Assembly (NCBI GenBank): GCA_016841425.1
Contig: JAENZE010000005.1
Location: forward strand, 1 to 64,000
Source: Syntrophomonas sp.
GTDB lineage: Bacteria > Bacillota > Syntrophomonadia > Syntrophomonadales > Syntrophomonadaceae
Length of the DNA stretch: 64,000 nt
Direction: 5' to 3'
The translations under genes were made by a program, and so were the position numbers. This document shows, piece by piece, positions 1 through 61,528 of this stretch (positions are counted from its first letter, which is position 1; every line of letters starts with the position of its first letter). The notes under the pieces are model-generated. The model searched no databases, had not been told where the DNA came from, and saw only the letters and a program-made list of their open reading frames with translations.

Positions 1-481
1 TATCAGTCCCAGTCTTCTTCGCACTTTAGTCTTGCTGTTCAGTTTTATCAGATCCGTGCGCTTTGGCTTCCCGCCGCGCAAGAGTTATCTTATCATCCCT
101 TAGGACAATTGTCAACAGATAATTTAACACTAATTTAATATTTTATTAATATCGACTTTTCCTTGACAAAATAGAATATTCTAAATACTAATAATAATAT
201 CCTAATCAGTCTCCAAAACCTGTAAAACGCTTTAATTAACCTCATCAACTATTTGATATATTGATATCTGCACTCGTTAATAAAGTAAATTAAAGAACTA
301 CTGGGTACACTAAATGTGCAGACCCTTGTTTGCTTATATAGTGATATTTATCTAGGTTTATGTTTAACAACTTTACGCTTTATGATTCAGCCAATATTTT
401 ACGCAGAAGTTAGTTATATTAGATCAGAAAAAAATCAGCCTTCATGGCCGTATTTTTTTGTTCTTATTTGTTTATCAATCT
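1..481. other. Gene-free AT-rich region
   Basis: No open reading frame here has a convincing ribosome site or a recognisable product. The only structured element is a promoter-like site near 163-188. The stretch lies downstream of the leftward DUF192 gene and may hold its transcript end or upstream signals for a gene outside the window. Confidence 0.5.
163..188 (+). promoter_or_regulatory. Promoter-like site with palindrome in the spacer
   Basis: A perfect TTGACA (163-168) is followed after 17 bases by a weak TACTAA -10. The 12-base palindrome TAGAATATTCTA (172-183) lies in the spacer, where a repressor would block polymerase. No plausible coding gene lies downstream on the plus strand before the convergent DUF192 gene, so a short non-coding transcript or a chance match is equally possible. 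Confidence 0.25.
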
Positions 482-844
482 TCAGTTATCAAGTACTGTG
501 CTTTTCAAACGGTGCCCAATTTTCAACCCGCTTCTCCTAACCTGGCCGGGCGGCAACTCAAGTACTGAGGATGAGTTTTTGATAACCGGGCTCAGTTTTC
601 CCGGTTGCATCTCTTCTATTATATGAAGTACCTGTTTATCTGACGAAAGAAATACAACATCGATAATTATTTTCATGCCTAAAGTATGAACTGAGGAGCA
701 GGGTTTAATCAGCAGCCCTTCCCCCTCCAACATCATCTCTTTACCCAGAAGACCCTTGAGCCGGGTAATAAAATTGTCTGCCAGGAAACAGCGGCTGGCT
801 ATTATCTCCCCGTTATCTTCATTTATTATTTGTAGTTCTTGCAC
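482..844 (-). CDS. DUF192 family protein
   Basis: A 120-residue protein that fills the DUF192 family from end to end. Family hallmarks are the N-terminal RLKGLLGK segment, a CSSVHTLGMK motif near residues 49-58, the following hydrophobic IDVVFLS strand, and the late ELPPG turn. The family function is unknown; members are small beta-barrel proteins, often secreted, but no signal peptide is visible here. It is the last gene in the direction of the Tad pilus operon, about 250 bases beyond tadC, so it may be independent. Family assignment is firm, role unknown. Confidence 0.85.
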   Translation of the reverse strand: MQELQIINEDNGEIIASRCFLADNFITRLKGLLGKEMMLEGEGLLIKPCSSVHTLGMKIIIDVVFLSSDKQVLHIIEEMQPGKLSPVIKNSSSVLELPPGQVRRSGLKIGHRLKSTVLDN

Positions 845-1090
845 TGCTTAATTCCTCCAAATATGATAAAGAACGATATTAAATCAGAATAAGCCCTTGA
901 TAAACAAGAATACAAGTAACATTATAGTCATAATCTTTCATGACAACTTTACAATGAGAAATATCCGCACAAATCAAGGAGAATATCATAAATACTATGT
1001 AGAAAAAGAAACCCATCTGCCTGCCCCCATGTGAACTGACTTTCTCCTTTCATCAAAAAAGATGACAATTGAGAACCATGCCCATTATCT

Positions 1091-1978
1091 TTAAAGGGTA
1101 TCCATAATATTTATGAATGCTGGCCCCAGGAGGATGATGAATATAACCGGGAATATGAAAACAACCAGTGGTATCAGCATCTTAATAGGTGCCTTCATAG
1201 CTTTTTCCTCGGCCTGCATCCGTCGGGTTTCCCGTGCCTGCTGGGATTGAATCTTCAACACATTACCGATGCTTACCCCCAGCAATTCTGCTTGTATGAT
1301 AGCGGTAGTGAAAATGGTAACTTCACTTATATTCAGCCGTTCTGCCATATCCTTCATAGCTTCCCGGCGAGGTTTGCCCATACCCATTTCCTGCAAGGCT
1401 TTCCCAAATTCGCTGCTCAAAGGTCCGGGATTTTTTTCTACTACCTTCTGCAGGGCGGCATCGAAGCCTAATCCGGCCTGAACGCTGATGCTGAGCAGAT
1501 CCAAAAAGTTAGGCAGTCCCTTTAAGACCTCATCTTCTCTCCGACTTACGATTGACTTCAGCCATAGGTCAGGCAACAACAAGCCGGCAGCTGCAAAGAG
1601 CATCAGATAAAGCACATTGCGAGTAAATATCCCGACTATAATACTGATAGTAAATATAACATATTTCAATACTAGATAGCTGTCCCCATTTAGTCCGTAA
1701 GGATTGCCAGCCGTCCTTAATTTGGCGTTATAGGCATCTTTCTCATTTTTGGGAATCAGTCTTTTGAAAACCCCGGATAGACTTCCCATTACCCTGCTGA
1801 CTACCCGGGTCTTAAAACCCAGCTGCAGCTCCGGGGGCAGGTAAGCCTTTTCTTCTTTTACAGTATAGGCCACTAGCCTTTCCCGGGTGATGATCTGTTC
1901 CCGGTTTATGTTATAAAGGTGCCCCAATACAAAAGAAGTTACCATTATGGCTAATAAGCTTGTAATTATTAATTCCAT
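1091..1978 (-). CDS. tadC: Tad pilus inner-membrane platform protein TadC
   Basis: A 295-residue type II secretion F-domain protein. It has an N-terminal membrane segment, a cytoplasmic region, two adjacent membrane segments near residues 105-140, the central F domain with LPNFLDLLSISVQAGLGFD near 155-175, and a C-terminal hydrophobic segment. TadB and TadC are paralogues thought to form the membrane platform on which the TadA ATPase assembles Flp pilin. It is the last gene of the Tad operon and follows tadB by 17 bases. The order cpaF-tadB-tadC is the standard Tad order, which supports the assignment. Confidence 0.92.
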   Translation of the reverse strand: MELIITSLLAIMVTSFVLGHLYNINREQIITRERLVAYTVKEEKAYLPPELQLGFKTRVVSRVMGSLSGVFKRLIPKNEKDAYNAKLRTAGNPYGLNGDSYLVLKYVIFTISIIVGIFTRNVLYLMLFAAAGLLLPDLWLKSIVSRREDEVLKGLPNFLDLLSISVQAGLGFDAALQKVVEKNPGPLSSEFGKALQEMGMGKPRREAMKDMAERLNISEVTIFTTAIIQAELLGVSIGNVLKIQSQQARETRRMQAEEKAMKAPIKMLIPLVVFIFPVIFIILLGPAFINIMDTL

Positions 1979-1995
1979 ATCTTCCTCCAGGTATC

Positions 1996-2952
1996 CTAGA
2001 ATTCTATATTTACAATCCGGCTAATTACAAAGGCCCCTACTATTTCCATTACTATAGCTGTCCCTAACATGGCCAATCCCCGACTGTCCTGTACAAAGAA
2101 ATAAACATTTTCCGGGTTTGCTACCAGCATAAATGCCAGCAGCGCTACAGGTAATAATCCAACAATTATTCCGGAAAGCTTACCCTGGGCAGTCAAGACC
2201 CGCACCTGTTTTTTGATTCGGGCCCGGTCTCGCATGGTGTCCCCGATATTATCCAGAATATGGGCCAGGTTGCCTCCTACCTGTTTCTGGATTATAATCC
2301 CGCTTATTACCATATCCAATTCTTCGCTATTTACCCGGGTACTCAAGTTCATTAAGGCTTCTTCCTGGTTAAACCCCAGATTCATCTCTCTCAGGCACCA
2401 ATCAAATTCATCGGCTATCGGAGGAGGCATCTCTTTGACTACGGTCTCCATAGCCTGCTGAAAGCCGAATCCCGCCCGCAGAGCATTGGCCATGATGACC
2501 AGGGAATCTGCTAACTGCATCTCAAAGGATTGCAGTCGTCTGTCTTTCTTTATACTTATATACATCCAGGGCAGTATTAGTGCCAGGATTAATATTATTA
2601 TGGACAGCCAAAAATTTGCACTTAATAAATAGGTAAGAAGGGGTGATATAATAATAACTGCCAGGCTTATGGTAATATATTCCTCGCCCTTCAAGGGTAT
2701 GCCGGCTGTAACCAGTCGGTTCTGCAGTTTTCCAGTAAAAGACCGGGCCACAAAGAGAGAAGATACCACCTTTACCAGGGAATTCAAGGTTGCTCTAACC
2801 GTAACCCTGTCGTGGGCACGATCCTTCTCCGACTGCCCTATCACAGTACGCAAACGCTCTTTGTAAAGATCCCGGGTGGAAAAAATCTTCTTTACCCCGC
2901 TTAGGGCAAAGGCAACCATCAAAAATACAAATAATATTATCAAATACTGCAC
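1996..2952 (-). CDS. tadB: Tad pilus inner-membrane platform protein TadB
   Basis: A 318-residue F-domain membrane protein. It has an N-terminal membrane anchor, a membrane pair near residues 95-130, an F domain carrying DSLVIMANALRAGFGFQQAM near 148-167, and a C-terminal hydrophobic segment. It is the larger of the two TadB/TadC platform paralogues and should interact with the CpaF/TadA ATPase encoded immediately upstream. It lies 29 bases downstream of cpaF in a continuous leftward operon. Assignment rests on the F domain plus the conserved gene order. Confidence 0.92.
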   Translation of the reverse strand: MQYLIILFVFLMVAFALSGVKKIFSTRDLYKERLRTVIGQSEKDRAHDRVTVRATLNSLVKVVSSLFVARSFTGKLQNRLVTAGIPLKGEEYITISLAVIIISPLLTYLLSANFWLSIIILILALILPWMYISIKKDRRLQSFEMQLADSLVIMANALRAGFGFQQAMETVVKEMPPPIADEFDWCLREMNLGFNQEEALMNLSTRVNSEELDMVISGIIIQKQVGGNLAHILDNIGDTMRDRARIKKQVRVLTAQGKLSGIIVGLLPVALLAFMLVANPENVYFFVQDSRGLAMLGTAIVMEIVGAFVISRIVNIEF

Positions 2953-2981
2953 TTAAAATCCTCCTAAATCAGGCAGCAGCC

Positions 2982-4304
2982 TTAGGCAAAGAACTCGTCT
3001 GGTATTACTATTCCAGCGGTGCGCAGTTTATCCAGACATTTTGGTTTAATGCCCGTGGCCCGATGACGACCCTGCACCCGACCGCGCTCATCCACCCCGG
3101 TCTGATCAAAGATAAAAATATCCTGAAGGGTAATAATATCAGTTTCCATACCCACCACTTCAGTAATGTGGGTAATCTTACGAGTACCATCAGATAGTCG
3201 GCTCTGGTGGACTATGAAATCAATGGCTGAGGCGATTTGCTCTCGGATGGCCTTCATGGGCATCTCCATACCTGCCATCAAAACCATGGTCTCCAAACGG
3301 GCCAAAGCATCCCGAGGCGAGTTGGCATGAGCAGTAGATAGTGACCCGTCGTGACCGGTATTCATAGCCTGCAGCATATCCAGTGCTTCTCCGCCGCGCA
3401 CCTCACCTACTACAATACGGTCAGGACGCATACGCAGGGAGTTACGCACCAAATCGCGGATAGCAATTTCTCCCTTGCCATCAACATTGGAGGGACGAGT
3501 TTCCAGAGTTACCACATGCTCCTGGTTCAGAACCAATTCAGCGGAATCCTCAATAGTGATAATCCGTTCATCATGGGGTATAAACCCGGATATTATATTC
3601 AAAGTACTTGTCTTACCGGCTCCGGTACCACCGGATACTATAATCGACATGCGCCCCTTGACACAGGCTTCTAAAAACTTGGCCATATGTGAGGTCATGG
3701 AGTTATTCCTTATTAGATCGGCGGTTTTTAAAAGGTTCTTAGCAAATTTACGGATGGTAAGGACACAGCCGTTCAGTGCCAGGGGCGGTATTATGGCGTT
3801 GACACGCGAACCGTCCGGCAGACGGGCATCTACCATGGGCATGCTCTCATCCAGCCTCCGGCCCAGGGGGGAGATGATCCTTTCTATCACCGTGTGCAGG
3901 TGCAGGTCATCCCGGAACACTACATTTACCCGCTCGATCTTCCCCCGCCGCTCTACAAAGACCTGTTTGGGGCCATTAACCATAATTTCAGATATACTCT
4001 CATCGCGCAATAGCGGACTTAAAGGTCCAAATTCCAAAACCTCATCGGTAACCTGTTTGATGACAAGTTCCCGTTCACTGCGGGGCAAGTTATCATAATC
4101 ATTTTCAATAATCGAATCAGTTATGCTGCGGATTCTGGTTTCAGTTTCTTCACGCCCTCTGCCATTAAAGGTTTCCTGTCCTATCTCCCGGATTATCTCC
4201 CGGTGAATCTTGTAAACTATTTCCAGGTAACGGGAAGAAGCAGTTTCTTTTGCAATATTAGGGGTTATCACCTGATCATTCTGTAATCTGGCCAAGAGAG
4301 ACAT
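2982..4304 (-). CDS. cpaF: Tad pilus assembly/secretion ATPase CpaF (TadA)
   Basis: A 440-residue VirB11/GspE-family ATPase that powers assembly, and possibly retraction, of Flp pili. The N-terminal domain holds the CpaF-typical GPLSPLLRDESISEIMVNGP region. The Walker A motif GGTGAGKTS is near residue 225, followed by TIEDSAEL (Asp box), VGEVRGGEALDML (Walker B) and the His-box STAHANSPRDAL. All catalytic motifs are intact and the length is normal. It sits between cpaE (23 bases upstream) and tadB. Confidence is high. Confidence 0.96.
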   Translation of the reverse strand: MSLLARLQNDQVITPNIAKETASSRYLEIVYKIHREIIREIGQETFNGRGREETETRIRSITDSIIENDYDNLPRSERELVIKQVTDEVLEFGPLSPLLRDESISEIMVNGPKQVFVERRGKIERVNVVFRDDLHLHTVIERIISPLGRRLDESMPMVDARLPDGSRVNAIIPPLALNGCVLTIRKFAKNLLKTADLIRNNSMTSHMAKFLEACVKGRMSIIVSGGTGAGKTSTLNIISGFIPHDERIITIEDSAELVLNQEHVVTLETRPSNVDGKGEIAIRDLVRNSLRMRPDRIVVGEVRGGEALDMLQAMNTGHDGSLSTAHANSPRDALARLETMVLMAGMEMPMKAIREQIASAIDFIVHQSRLSDGTRKITHITEVVGMETDIITLQDIFIFDQTGVDERGRVQGRHRATGIKPKCLDKLRTAGIVIPDEFFA

Positions 4305-56318: not shown

Positions 56319-57530
56319 TTAAATATCTCTGGTCCATAGCGAACAGTAAGCCGGTCCACCACCTACACAGAGAGAAGCTCCGCCTATGGTTTTACCCTGT
56401 TTTTCCAACTCATAATACAGGGAGACTACAATACGCAGGGCGGTACATCCTACCGGATGACCCAGGCCGATACCAGAGCCATTGACATTGACCTTGCTTA
56501 GATCCATATCAATACCGAAGTCTTCTTTTAGCATTCTGCCCACACCGATAAATTGAGGAGCAAAGGCTTCGTTGATTTCCCAGTATTCCACGTCTTCATA
56601 TTTCATGCCCGCTTCTTTAAGGCATTTGGGAATGGCAACTGCCGGACCCAGACCCATTACTTCAGGAGCTACCCCTTCAGCACAGATGTTGATCAATTTC
56701 ATTAGGGGTTTGAGTCCCAGTTCTTCGGCTTTAGCCTTGGACATGATGATTACAGCTGCTGCAGCATCATTAATACCAGAAGCATTAGCGGCGGTGACTA
56801 CGCCGCCTATTTTAAATGCCGTACCTAGTTTGGCCATAGATTCCAAGCTGGCATCGGGAATCATATGCTCGTCTTTTTCATATAATTTGATACCCTTCTT
56901 GGACTTGAGTTCGACTGGGACTATTTCCCGCGTAAAGGTTCCGTCCTGGGTAGCGCGGGTAGCGCGTTGATGACTCAAAAGGGCCAGTTGATCACATTCT
57001 TCTCGAGTAATGCCGTATTTCTCAGCAATATTTTCGGCAGTCAGGCCCATGTGGCCAGGTACCAGGCGATCTACCAGACCGTCATGCAGCATGGAGTCCT
57101 CAATCTGGCCAGGACCCATCCTGTAGCCCATTCTGGCTTTGGGGAGCATGTAGGGGGCATTGGTCATGCTTTCTACGCCTACTACCAGACCAATATCAAT
57201 TTTGCCTAATTGAATATGGTTTATTACTACATCCAGAGCCCGCATACCGGAGGCACAGTTCTGGTTTACATTACAGGCATTGCTTCTGTCTGGAAGACCG
57301 GCAGCCTTGCCGACCTGGCGGGCAGGCAGTGATCCCTGCATATGAGGATATACTTCGCCCATAACTATTTCATCAATAGCACCCGGGGCAACACCCGCTC
57401 TTTTTATGGCTTCCTTAGCTACCGTGATGGCTAAGTCTAAGGCCTGGACATCCTTTAAGCTGCCCTGAAATTTAGCAATAGGCGTTCTACAGGCACTCAC
57501 TATTACTACATCCTGAATTTCCTTCATCAT
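56319..57530 (-). CDS. Acetyl-CoA acetyltransferase (thiolase)
   Basis: A 403-residue thiolase. Start at 57530 has GGGAGG eight bases upstream. The reading frame remains open to 57719, but that extension overlaps a crotonase scar and the preceding stop. The nucleophilic Cys is in VNQNCASGMRALD, the His is in NEAFAPQF region (EINEAFA), and the second Cys is in GHPVGCTALR. The closing GGASLCVGGGPAYC is standard except that the family GG-Gly end is slightly changed (CxGGG followed by PAY). It cleaves acetoacetyl-CoA to two acetyl-CoA in beta-oxidation, or the reverse. Confidence 0.94.
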   Translation of the reverse strand: MMKEIQDVVIVSACRTPIAKFQGSLKDVQALDLAITVAKEAIKRAGVAPGAIDEIVMGEVYPHMQGSLPARQVGKAAGLPDRSNACNVNQNCASGMRALDVVINHIQLGKIDIGLVVGVESMTNAPYMLPKARMGYRMGPGQIEDSMLHDGLVDRLVPGHMGLTAENIAEKYGITREECDQLALLSHQRATRATQDGTFTREIVPVELKSKKGIKLYEKDEHMIPDASLESMAKLGTAFKIGGVVTAANASGINDAAAAVIIMSKAKAEELGLKPLMKLINICAEGVAPEVMGLGPAVAIPKCLKEAGMKYEDVEYWEINEAFAPQFIGVGRMLKEDFGIDMDLSKVNVNGSGIGLGHPVGCTALRIVVSLYYELEKQGKTIGGASLCVGGGPAYCSLWTRDI

Positions 57531-57564
57531 ATTAAAAACCTCCCATAATTTATCATCAAACGAT

Positions 57565-57675
57565 TTATTTCCCTTGAAATACGGGCTTCCTTTTTTCCAG
57601 GAAAGCTCCCATTCCCTCTTTTTGATCAAAGGTTGAAGAAATCCAATCTGGATTTTCACAATTACTAAGACCGGG
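57565..57675 (-). pseudogene. C-terminal scar of a crotonase (enoyl-CoA hydratase) gene
   Basis: Between the hbd stop and the thiolase ribosome site, one minus-strand frame reads STFDQKEGMGAFLEKRKP followed by VFQGK and a stop at 57565. The pattern DQKEGM-AFLEKRKP-F-GK is the typical C-terminal end of crotonases. It has no start codon or ribosome site. The frame is open back to near 57675 but loses clear similarity there. The order hbd-(crt)-thl implies that an intact crotonase gene was once present and has been deleted. Confidence 0.85.
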
Positions 57676-57676
57676 C

Positions 57677-58525
57677 TTAGTAATTGTAGAACCCCTTCTT
57701 GGTCTTCATTCCCAGCCACCCGGCCCGTACATATTGTTTGAGCAGGCCGGAGGGACGATATTTGGGATCCCCGGTTTCATCATACAGAGTATTCATTACT
57801 GCCAGGGCGATATCACCGCCTACCAGATCACAGAGAGTCAGTGGACCCATAGGCCATCCAGCCCCAAACTTCATAGCGGTATCAATGTCTTCAGCACTTG
57901 CCAGTCCTTCCTGCAGAATGAAACAGCCTTCGTTGATGGTGGGAACTAGAATGCGGTTGACCACAAACCCCGGGCCTTCTTTAACTCTTACCGGTTTCTT
58001 GCCAATTTCTATAGATAGATCGGTGACGATTTTCATGGTTTCTTCCGAGGTCTGCAGAGCAGGAATAACCTCGATAAGTTTCATGACATTAGCCGGATTA
58101 AAGAAATGCATACCGACAACTTTATCCGCCCTGGTGGTAATAGCAGCAATTTCAGTAATAGAAAGAGAGGAAGTGTTGGTAGCGATAATAACCTCGGGGG
58201 CCAGTAAGGCATCCAATTTAGTATAGACGTCCTTTTTTACCTCCATGTTTTCAAAAACGGCTTCTATCACGAAATCAACGTCTTTTATATCCTCTATATT
58301 ACTAACCCCTATAATATTACCCAGTACAGCATCTTTGGTTCCTGGAGCTGATTTACCCTTTTCTTCTGCTTTAGCCAGACTCATTGCTATAGAAGCAATC
58401 GCCTTATCAATCAGTTCCTGTTTGATATCATATAGTACAACTTTTTTCCCGGCAGCTGCCAGTGCCCAGACAATACCCTGTCCCATAGTGCCAGCACCAA
58501 GCATTGCGATCGTGTTAATAGCCAT
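57677..58525 (-). CDS. hbd: 3-hydroxybutyryl-CoA dehydrogenase
   Basis: A 282-residue dehydrogenase. NAD site MLGAGTMGQGIVWALAAAG, NTSSLSITEIA, catalytic His in GMHFFNPANVMKLIEVI, and GPGFVVNRILVPTINEG are all canonical. It oxidises 3-hydroxybutyryl-CoA with NAD. It is the first gene of the leftward beta-oxidation operon and lies 130 bases downstream of a perfect sigma-54 promoter. A GGAGGGCAAATAA ribosome site precedes the ATG. Confidence 0.96.
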   Translation of the reverse strand: MAINTIAMLGAGTMGQGIVWALAAAGKKVVLYDIKQELIDKAIASIAMSLAKAEEKGKSAPGTKDAVLGNIIGVSNIEDIKDVDFVIEAVFENMEVKKDVYTKLDALLAPEVIIATNTSSLSITEIAAITTRADKVVGMHFFNPANVMKLIEVIPALQTSEETMKIVTDLSIEIGKKPVRVKEGPGFVVNRILVPTINEGCFILQEGLASAEDIDTAMKFGAGWPMGPLTLCDLVGGDIALAVMNTLYDETGDPKYRPSGLLKQYVRAGWLGMKTKKGFYNY

Positions 58526-58656
58526 TTATTTGCCCTCCTTAATATATAAAAATCATTAATAGATACCTGGATAGAAAAAAATTCACCTCCTAATCCTTCA
58601 AGAGTATTAGATTATCTGCATTCAATGCAGTAAATTGTCTTACACACGGTTATATA

Positions 58657-58671
58657 GCAAGATAAGTGCCA
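58657..58671 (-). promoter_or_regulatory. Sigma-54 (-24/-12) promoter of the beta-oxidation operon
   Basis: The minus strand reads TGGCAC-TTATC-TTGC, a perfect match to the -24/-12 consensus TGGCAC-N5-TTGC. It lies about 130 bases upstream of the hbd ATG, giving a leader of about 120 bases. A sigma-54-dependent activator gene ends 390 bases upstream, which supports function. Confidence 0.88.
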
Positions 58672-58698
58672 GGAAAGCAAAAAGGAGTCAAAATATAC

Positions 58699-58740
58699 AA
58701 AAAAAGGCGGTATACCGTGATTTAACGGTATGCCGCCAAT
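58699..58740 (-). terminator. Rho-independent terminator of the sigma-54 regulator gene
   Basis: On the minus strand GGCGGCATACCG pairs with CGGTATACCGCC (one G-T/A-C variation) followed by a run of seven T. It lies about 320 bases past the regulator stop and immediately upstream of the hbd promoter, so it insulates the two transcripts. Confidence 0.88.
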
Positions 58741-59062: not shown

Positions 59063-61528
59063 CTATAGCTGGTCCAGGCCATATTTGCCCAGTTTACGAT
59101 ACAGTGCTGAAGTGTGAATACCCAAAACTCTGGCGGTATGCACTTTGTTGCCACCGTTCTTCTCCATAGCCTGTATTATTAACTGCTTTTCCAGCTGTTC
59201 AACAGCATTTGGAAGAGTCAAGGAATCAACAGCAGATGGTTCGTCATTAAAATAAGTGTTTTCCACTAGCAGTGGAAAGTGCTTGATGGTAATGTTGCTT
59301 TCTCGATTCATATCAGCCATATTGATAGCTCTCTCCAGCAGGTTCTCCAGTTCGCGAATGTTGCCGGGCCAGTCGTAATTCTGCATCAGTTGAATAGCTT
59401 TATGAGATACTTTTTTAATGTCTGTACCCAGCTTGCTGTTTATTTTTCGTATCAGGGTGTTTACCAGCAGAGGAATATCTTCGCTGCGTTCTTTAAGCGG
59501 AGGAATATCTAATCTTACCACATTCAGGCGGTAAAAAAGATCCTGTCGAAACTTCTGCTCGGCTACCAATTGCTCAAGATTGCAGTTGGTTGCAGCAATA
59601 ACTCGTACGTTTACAAAAATAGGCTTGGTACCACCTACTCTTTCCACTACTCTATCCTGCAGGACGGTCAAGAGTTTGGTCTGCATAGTCAGCGGCATGT
59701 CACCAATTTCATCCAGGAAGACGGTCCCCCCCATCGCCAGTTCAAACTTGCCGTGTTTTCCTCCCTTGCGAGCACCAGTAAAAGCACCTTCTTCATAACC
59801 AAAGAGTTCGGATTCCAGAAGGTTTTCGGGCAGAGCAGCACAGTTTATTTTAACAAAGGGATGGTTGCTGCGATTGCTGGAGTTATGAATGGCATGGGCA
59901 AATAATTCTTTGCCAGTTCCGCTTTCCCCGGTTATAAGCACGGTGGAGACGGTATGAGATAATTGTTCAGCTACAGATTTAACATTAGTAAAGGCAGTAC
60001 ATTCACCGATTAAATCCTTAAATTGCCATTGGGCCTGGTAACCCAAACGAATTTCCTCCTTGTATATATTTAACTCTTTCTCAGTTTCCTGCAGTTTATT
60101 CATCAGTATTTTAGCACCAGACATATCCATAAACAGACTCCGGGCAACAGCTCCTATTATTTCACCATCCTTAATGATGGGCAGGCGGGTAACTATAGTG
60201 TTGCGCCCGTTGATAGAAAATATATCGGCTTCATCTATTCGACCGGTTCTCAGTATTTCAGGCAGCAGTGAATTTGGTGTGATGTCCAGAATATGCTTTC
60301 CTACTACCTGACTTTTTTCTAAACCCAGCTGCTCAAGATAAGTCGGATTCATGGCTGTAATTATGCCTTCCTTGTCTACAATAACATAAACCATATAAGG
60401 GCTTTCAATCAAAGCCTCGGAGATAGCTCGGAATTCTTTCTCGGTTTCCTGGAGTTTGTGCATAAATATCTTGGCGCCGGACATGTCCAGGAAAAGACTC
60501 TTGGCAATAGCGCCGATGATTTTGCCGTCCTTCATGACCGGCATGCGGCTCATAATCGTATCCCGCCCATTAATGGGCCAGATGACTGCTTCATCAACAC
60601 GTCCTGTTTTCAGGATTACCGGCAAATCCGAGGTGGGCGTGATCTCCAGAATGTGTTTGCCTACTACTTCTTCTTTGGTAAAGCCCAGGATATCCAGGTA
60701 GGTACGGTTCATAGCCGTGATGATACCGTCTTTGTCCACTATAACATAAACCATGTAAGGGCTTTCAATTAAGGCTTCTGAAAGAGCCCGGTACTCCTCC
60801 TCGGTCTCCTGCATTTTTTGCATCATAATTTTCACACCGGAAACATCCAGGAAAAGGCTCTTGCCAATGGCGCCGATTATCTCCCCATTTTTTATAATAG
60901 GTAGGCGGGTTACAATGGTATCTCTTCCGTTTATGGGCCAGATGTCGGCTTTATCTACCCGCCCGGTTTTCAATACTTCAGGGAGCTGAGAAGTAGGTGT
61001 GACCTCTGAAATATGCTTTCCTATAACGTCCTTTTTTTCTAGCTTAAGCTCATCCAGATAGGTCTGGTTCATCATGGTAATATAACCTTCTTTGTTTACG
61101 CTCACATAAACCATGTAAGGGCTTTCAATCATAGCCACCGAATAGGCCTGGAATTCTTCTTCGGTTTCCTGCAATCTCTGCATCAAAATCCGAGCGCCGG
61201 ACATATCCAAAAAGAAACTCTGGCCTATAGCTCCCACTATTTCTCCGTTCTTTACTATGGGAAAACGGGTCACTACAGTGTCCCTGCCGTTCAGAGGCCA
61301 TATGTCAGCCTTATCTATTCTTCCCGTTTTTAGTACTTCGGGGAGTTCTGAGTTGGGAAGTACTTCCAGAACGTATTTACCTATAGCTTCATCCCTGCTT
61401 AAACCGAGTAAATCAAGAAAGACTTTATTCATAATCGTAATATAACCATCTTTGTCAACAATCACCAATGCCATATAGGGACTTTCTACCAGTAAACCAT
61501 CTATATTTTCAATATTGAAATTTGACAT
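59063..61528 (-). CDS. Sigma-54-dependent activator with four tandem PAS domains
   Basis: An 821-residue protein; start at 61528 has GGAGGC eight bases upstream. Residues about 10-490 hold four PAS units of 120 residues each, very similar to one another (each starts ESPYM, with YIT or IIT and MN, and ends with a GAI[GA][QK]S-LF-D[MV]SGA motif). An AAA+ domain follows with GESGTGKE (Walker A), the sigma-54 loop GAFTGA, and GGTVFLDEIGDMP. A Fis-type HTH closes the protein (NKVHTARVLGIHTSALYRKL). It should sense a small ligand or redox signal and turn on the sigma-54 promoter of the hbd operon. Confidence 0.95.
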   Translation of the reverse strand: MSNFNIENIDGLLVESPYMALVIVDKDGYITIMNKVFLDLLGLSRDEAIGKYVLEVLPNSELPEVLKTGRIDKADIWPLNGRDTVVTRFPIVKNGEIVGAIGQSFFLDMSGARILMQRLQETEEEFQAYSVAMIESPYMVYVSVNKEGYITMMNQTYLDELKLEKKDVIGKHISEVTPTSQLPEVLKTGRVDKADIWPINGRDTIVTRLPIIKNGEIIGAIGKSLFLDVSGVKIMMQKMQETEEEYRALSEALIESPYMVYVIVDKDGIITAMNRTYLDILGFTKEEVVGKHILEITPTSDLPVILKTGRVDEAVIWPINGRDTIMSRMPVMKDGKIIGAIAKSLFLDMSGAKIFMHKLQETEKEFRAISEALIESPYMVYVIVDKEGIITAMNPTYLEQLGLEKSQVVGKHILDITPNSLLPEILRTGRIDEADIFSINGRNTIVTRLPIIKDGEIIGAVARSLFMDMSGAKILMNKLQETEKELNIYKEEIRLGYQAQWQFKDLIGECTAFTNVKSVAEQLSHTVSTVLITGESGTGKELFAHAIHNSSNRSNHPFVKINCAALPENLLESELFGYEEGAFTGARKGGKHGKFELAMGGTVFLDEIGDMPLTMQTKLLTVLQDRVVERVGGTKPIFVNVRVIAATNCNLEQLVAEQKFRQDLFYRLNVVRLDIPPLKERSEDIPLLVNTLIRKINSKLGTDIKKVSHKAIQLMQNYDWPGNIRELENLLERAINMADMNRESNITIKHFPLLVENTYFNDEPSAVDSLTLPNAVEQLEKQLIIQAMEKNGGNKVHTARVLGIHTSALYRKLGKYGLDQL

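Follow-up and report, generated by a model that had tools for sequence, protein, structure and literature searches.

The closest described counterparts of the operon analyzed here are two gene clusters of Syntrophomonas wolfei, Swol_0788-0791 (acd, thl, crt, hbd) and Swol_0307-0309 (hbd, thl, CoA transferase). This species was represented by G025, a single-contig genome of 2,936,195 bp, which we take to be S. wolfei Goettingen. The Swol numbers come from gene order in G025 together with peptides printed in PMC9676460, not from an annotated record; Swol_0790 is the name for the S. wolfei gene at the operon position studied here, and Swol_2031 is the gene behind Swol_2030. Several crotonase paralogues are expressed at once in S. 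wolfei, and Swol_0790 and Swol_2031 are among the low-abundance crotonase paralogues newly detected there (PMC9676460). For Syntrophomonas BUT1, redundancy has been related to fluctuating substrate supply and to robustness to gene loss (PMC6687939).

The window, a stretch of 64,000 nucleotides, belongs to a 3.58-Mb, 27-contig draft genome (G000) whose source organism is a Syntrophomonas-like degrader of fatty acids and probably a syntrophic butyrate oxidizer. Genes for an acyl-CoA dehydrogenase, a hydroxyacyl-CoA dehydrogenase, a thiolase and a CoA transferase lie in one direction, as in a butyrate β-oxidation operon, but of the enoyl-CoA hydratase gene a scar alone is left (Table 1).

Table 1. 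Features of the β-oxidation operon and its upstream region in the window
Feature	Position	Strand	Basis
sigma-54-dependent activator with repeated PAS domains	59063..61528	-	PF00158, PAS families, PF02954
perfect sigma-54 -24/-12 promoter match upstream of hbd, TGGCACTTATCTTGCT	58656..58671	-	motif match
hbd, 3-hydroxybutyryl-CoA dehydrogenase, intact, 282 aa	57677..58525	-	profile matches; dN/dS about 0.04 vs G003
13-bp-stem hairpin over hbd stop codon	57657..57688	-	-16.6 kcal/mol, z -3.3
deletion junction, 722 bp of G003/G001 missing	57640..57641	-	pairwise and three-way alignment
crt scar, last 24 codons and stop (SSTFDQKEGMGAFLEKRKPVFQGK*), without start codon	57565..57640	-	3' end of intact G003 crt and protein match
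thl, acetyl-CoA acetyltransferase, intact, own ribosome-binding site GGGAGG	56319..57530	-	dN/dS about 0.06 vs G003
acd, acyl-CoA dehydrogenase, intact, 611 aa	54371..56206	-	profile matches and dN/dS vs G003
cat, butyryl-CoA:acetate CoA-transferase-like, intact, 447 aa	53004..54347	-	TIGR03948, below its curated cut-off

The scar is a pseudogene, what the deletion left of a gene for short-chain enoyl-CoA hydratase (crotonase, crt). When all coding-strand frames are translated, SSTFDQKEGMGAFLEKRKPVFQGK followed by a stop is found in the hbd/thl spacer, in a frame that differs from the open frame running into thl. When the whole genome is searched with the nearest relative's crotonase, this peptide aligns to the congeneric C-terminus (92% over 25 aa, E = 6e-8), and 74 of its 76 nucleotides are the same as in the 3' end of crt from the congeneric genome G003. 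The alignment places the scar in register with the 3' end of this functional homologue, including the stop and the thl leader. The peptide has neither a start codon nor an open frame of its own; start, ribosome-binding site and catalytic part are all gone, and an intact orthologue occupies the same place in two close relatives, G003 and G001. The original prediction of a crotonase tail in this spacer is thus correct, except that the tail comprises 24 codons plus stop rather than 23; the interval assigned to it, 56319-58525, spans thl to hbd, the scar itself measuring only 76 nt.

In the pairwise alignment with G003, window bases 57641 and 57640 flank the breakpoint at which 722 bp of G003 are gone; identity to G003 is 94-95% in the sequence on either side. 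When the regulator and operon of the window, G003 and G001 are aligned three ways, this gap at 57640 is the sole one of more than 20 bp within ~8.5 kb, and a longer gap occurs only beyond the last gene, at the alignment end. The crt ribosome-binding site, the start codon and about 91% of the gene (all but 24 codons) were lost with the 722 bp. The alignments indicate that one deletion took nearly all of crt from the β-oxidation operon, and it would have arisen in this lineage, after the split from the nearest relative compared. The deletion ends share an imperfect 10-base match (TTGG-ATGTG / TTGGTATGTG), apart from which no clear or long repeat flanks the deletion. We make no claim of deletion via a direct repeat, as the score of the TTGG(T)ATGTG pair is equalled by 345 of 5000 random pairs (7%) and the junction is without the GTG of the repeat. 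Transposition of crt to another site was also rejected: no other part of G000 contains the deleted DNA, the best DNA match there being 68%.

The hbd gene of the window is 97% identical to that of G003 and 96% identical to that of G001. Both congeneric genomes keep crt intact in the hbd/thl interval, the two copies being 99% identical, which bears out the proposal that the operon once had the order hbd-crt-thl. This intact crt has PF00378 and NF004475 as its best matches, scoring 386 bits with the latter, just under the cut-off of 394. Across relatives, a crotonase lies directly behind hbd in 23 of 25 loci with an hbd at least 66% identical and with downstream sequence (the window's own scar is left out of this count and would make 24). 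One exception, G022, has a rearranged operon with crt at its other end. The other, G017, has an hbd without a crotonase behind it (L149:3976-4400); its neighbours are genes for pyruvate kinase and phosphofructokinase, like those of a second hbd locus of G000, on contig C25. No trace of crt was found behind hbd in G017, and this is probably a second, independent crt loss, at a locus that matches C25 by its neighbours.

The remaining enzyme genes are well preserved. Compared with G003, dN/dS values are 0.0133/0.330 for hbd, 0.0065/0.115 for thl, 0.0150/0.325 for acd and 0.0215/0.298 for cat, giving ratios of 0.04-0.07 that mix time before and after the deletion and are largely pre-deletion. With dN of 0.0065-0.0215 against dS of 0.115-0.33, all four genes are therefore constrained. 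Strong purifying selection on the genes that remain makes it most likely that the operon still works after the deletion, its hydration step being supplied from elsewhere. Since the comparison spans both periods, it proves neither continued use of the operon nor the absence of early decay. Decay of the whole operon, with the crt deletion as its first step, strikes us as unlikely. Such decay would fit the abundance of paralogous operons and the detection of the Swol_0788-0791 products among the low-abundance paralogues newly found in S. wolfei (PMC9676460). It fits poorly with the open frames of hbd, thl, acd, cat and the activator, with the low ratios of the four enzymes and with the retained sigma-54 promoter, although a deletion that happened very recently could leave the same picture.

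The thl frame of 466 aa in the open-reading-frame list results from extending the gene mechanically across the scar; translation most likely begins at the ATGATG at 57530/57527, which follows GGGAGG. With a ribosome-binding site of its own, thl should be translated independently of crt. The G001 thl (L060:7719-8927) shows about 76-86% DNA identity to window positions 56319-57527, compared with 87-97% for its neighbours, with sharp identity borders at the gene ends and a dS of 1.26 versus 0.35-0.39. The window and G003 copies are unusually alike (dS 0.115 versus 0.30-0.33). We read this pattern as recombination that replaced the thl allele alone.

Upstream of hbd, the sigma-54 promoter is the one match found in the window, against 0.07 expected, and G003 and G001 have it in the same position. 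The PAS/sigma-54 activator encoded by the adjacent upstream gene is likely the operon regulator. An inverted repeat at 58690-58740 (GGCGGTATACCG/CGGTATGCCGCC), followed on the minus strand by a T run, is probably the terminator of the activator gene. A hairpin spans the hbd stop codon, directly adjoining the left end of the deletion; its stem has lengthened stepwise, from none predicted in G001 through 7 bp in G003 to 13 bp in the window. One clustered change in it, GAAG to ATTG, reproduces the sequence of the opposite arm, as expected of template switching at a quasi-palindrome; we claim no tie to the deletion. It is very improbable that the loss was adaptive, the operon working with a hydratase borrowed from another locus while the strengthened hairpin retunes hbd relative to thl expression.

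The original prediction assigned enoyl-CoA hydration to an enzyme encoded elsewhere, a sound inference for the products of this operon; crotonases do exist elsewhere in the genome. G000 contains 29 crotonase-family (PF00378) matches. The closest paralogue of the lost crt (C25:17583-18374, 66% protein identity) lies directly behind the second hbd, at a locus that has a separate sigma-54 activator gene upstream. In the tree, the lost gene groups with Swol_0790 (support 100/97), and the C25 paralogue groups with Swol_2031 (support 97/91). A stop was reported inside the crotonase match on contig C5; this gene is not clearly a pseudogene, because a 257-aa frame is open and ends just short of the family's usual C-terminus. 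Over 1417 bp, the short contig C12 (positions 1-3319, L147) matches the end of C3 (L148) at 98.9% identity, crotonase included, which reflects either a recent duplication or an assembly-graph end.

With so many crotonase paralogues in a draft of 27 contigs, crt could in principle be present in the organism and have been collapsed out of the contig. We consider such an assembly artefact very improbable, given that there is no long repeat at the junction and that the deleted segment is on no contig and is at most 68% identical to any paralogue. The idea that the operon never had crt, the fragment being a chance likeness or an inserted piece, can point to hbd-thl operons without crt such as Swol_0307-0309, but is refuted by alignment to G003 and G001, which have crt in place and put the scar in register with its 3' end, stop and thl leader.

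We put at roughly 0.93 the probability that this is a lineage-specific 722-bp deletion of crt, with hydration now provided by a paralogous crotonase and the loss tolerated through redundancy. The deletion cut the Swol_0790 orthologue out of a sigma-54-driven operon hbd-crt-thl-acd-cat, the last 24 codons staying behind. Crotonyl-CoA hydration for the operon's substrates would now be carried out by one of the many paralogous crotonases. The likeliest substitute may be the C25 crotonase beside the second hbd. The paralogue lost is of the Swol_0790 type, and one of the Swol_2031 type (the Swol_2030/2031 arrangement) probably replaces it. The loss was presumably tolerated because the paralogues are redundant. 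The scar itself is ordinary gene decay, as the genome has more than two dozen other crotonase-family genes. The strain offers a natural knockout for paralogue redundancy, which has been discussed for Syntrophomonas but little tested. It also advises against relying on operon context when crotonyl-CoA hydration is assigned in this strain.

Compared with the known systems, the operon most resembles Swol_0788-0791, whose hbd and thl are orthologues of the window's genes (88% and 91% identical), whose crt is 85% identical to the G003 crt at the deleted position, and which has a related regulator upstream. That operon differs in having an intact crt and in its acyl-CoA dehydrogenase, another family member (28% identical to that of the window). 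In Swol_0307-0309, thl directly follows hbd with no crt, and the hbd and CoA transferase are both 86% identical to those of the window, whereas thl is only 64% identical; no trace of a crt scar was found by eye in the 74-nt Swol_0307/Swol_0308 spacer. The C25 hbd-crt pair shares with the window an hbd (71% identical) and an upstream sigma-54 activator gene, and its crt is 66% identical to the G003 crt, but it is an intact, separate locus with no thl directly behind. The crt-less Swol_0307-0309 operon exists already, and G017 also lacks crt beside hbd. That an operon loses one of many paralogous crotonases is ordinary and not surprising in a genome so rich in them. Set against these systems, the window shows cleanly, with relatives to frame the comparison, the loss of a single step from a multi-copy β-oxidation operon.
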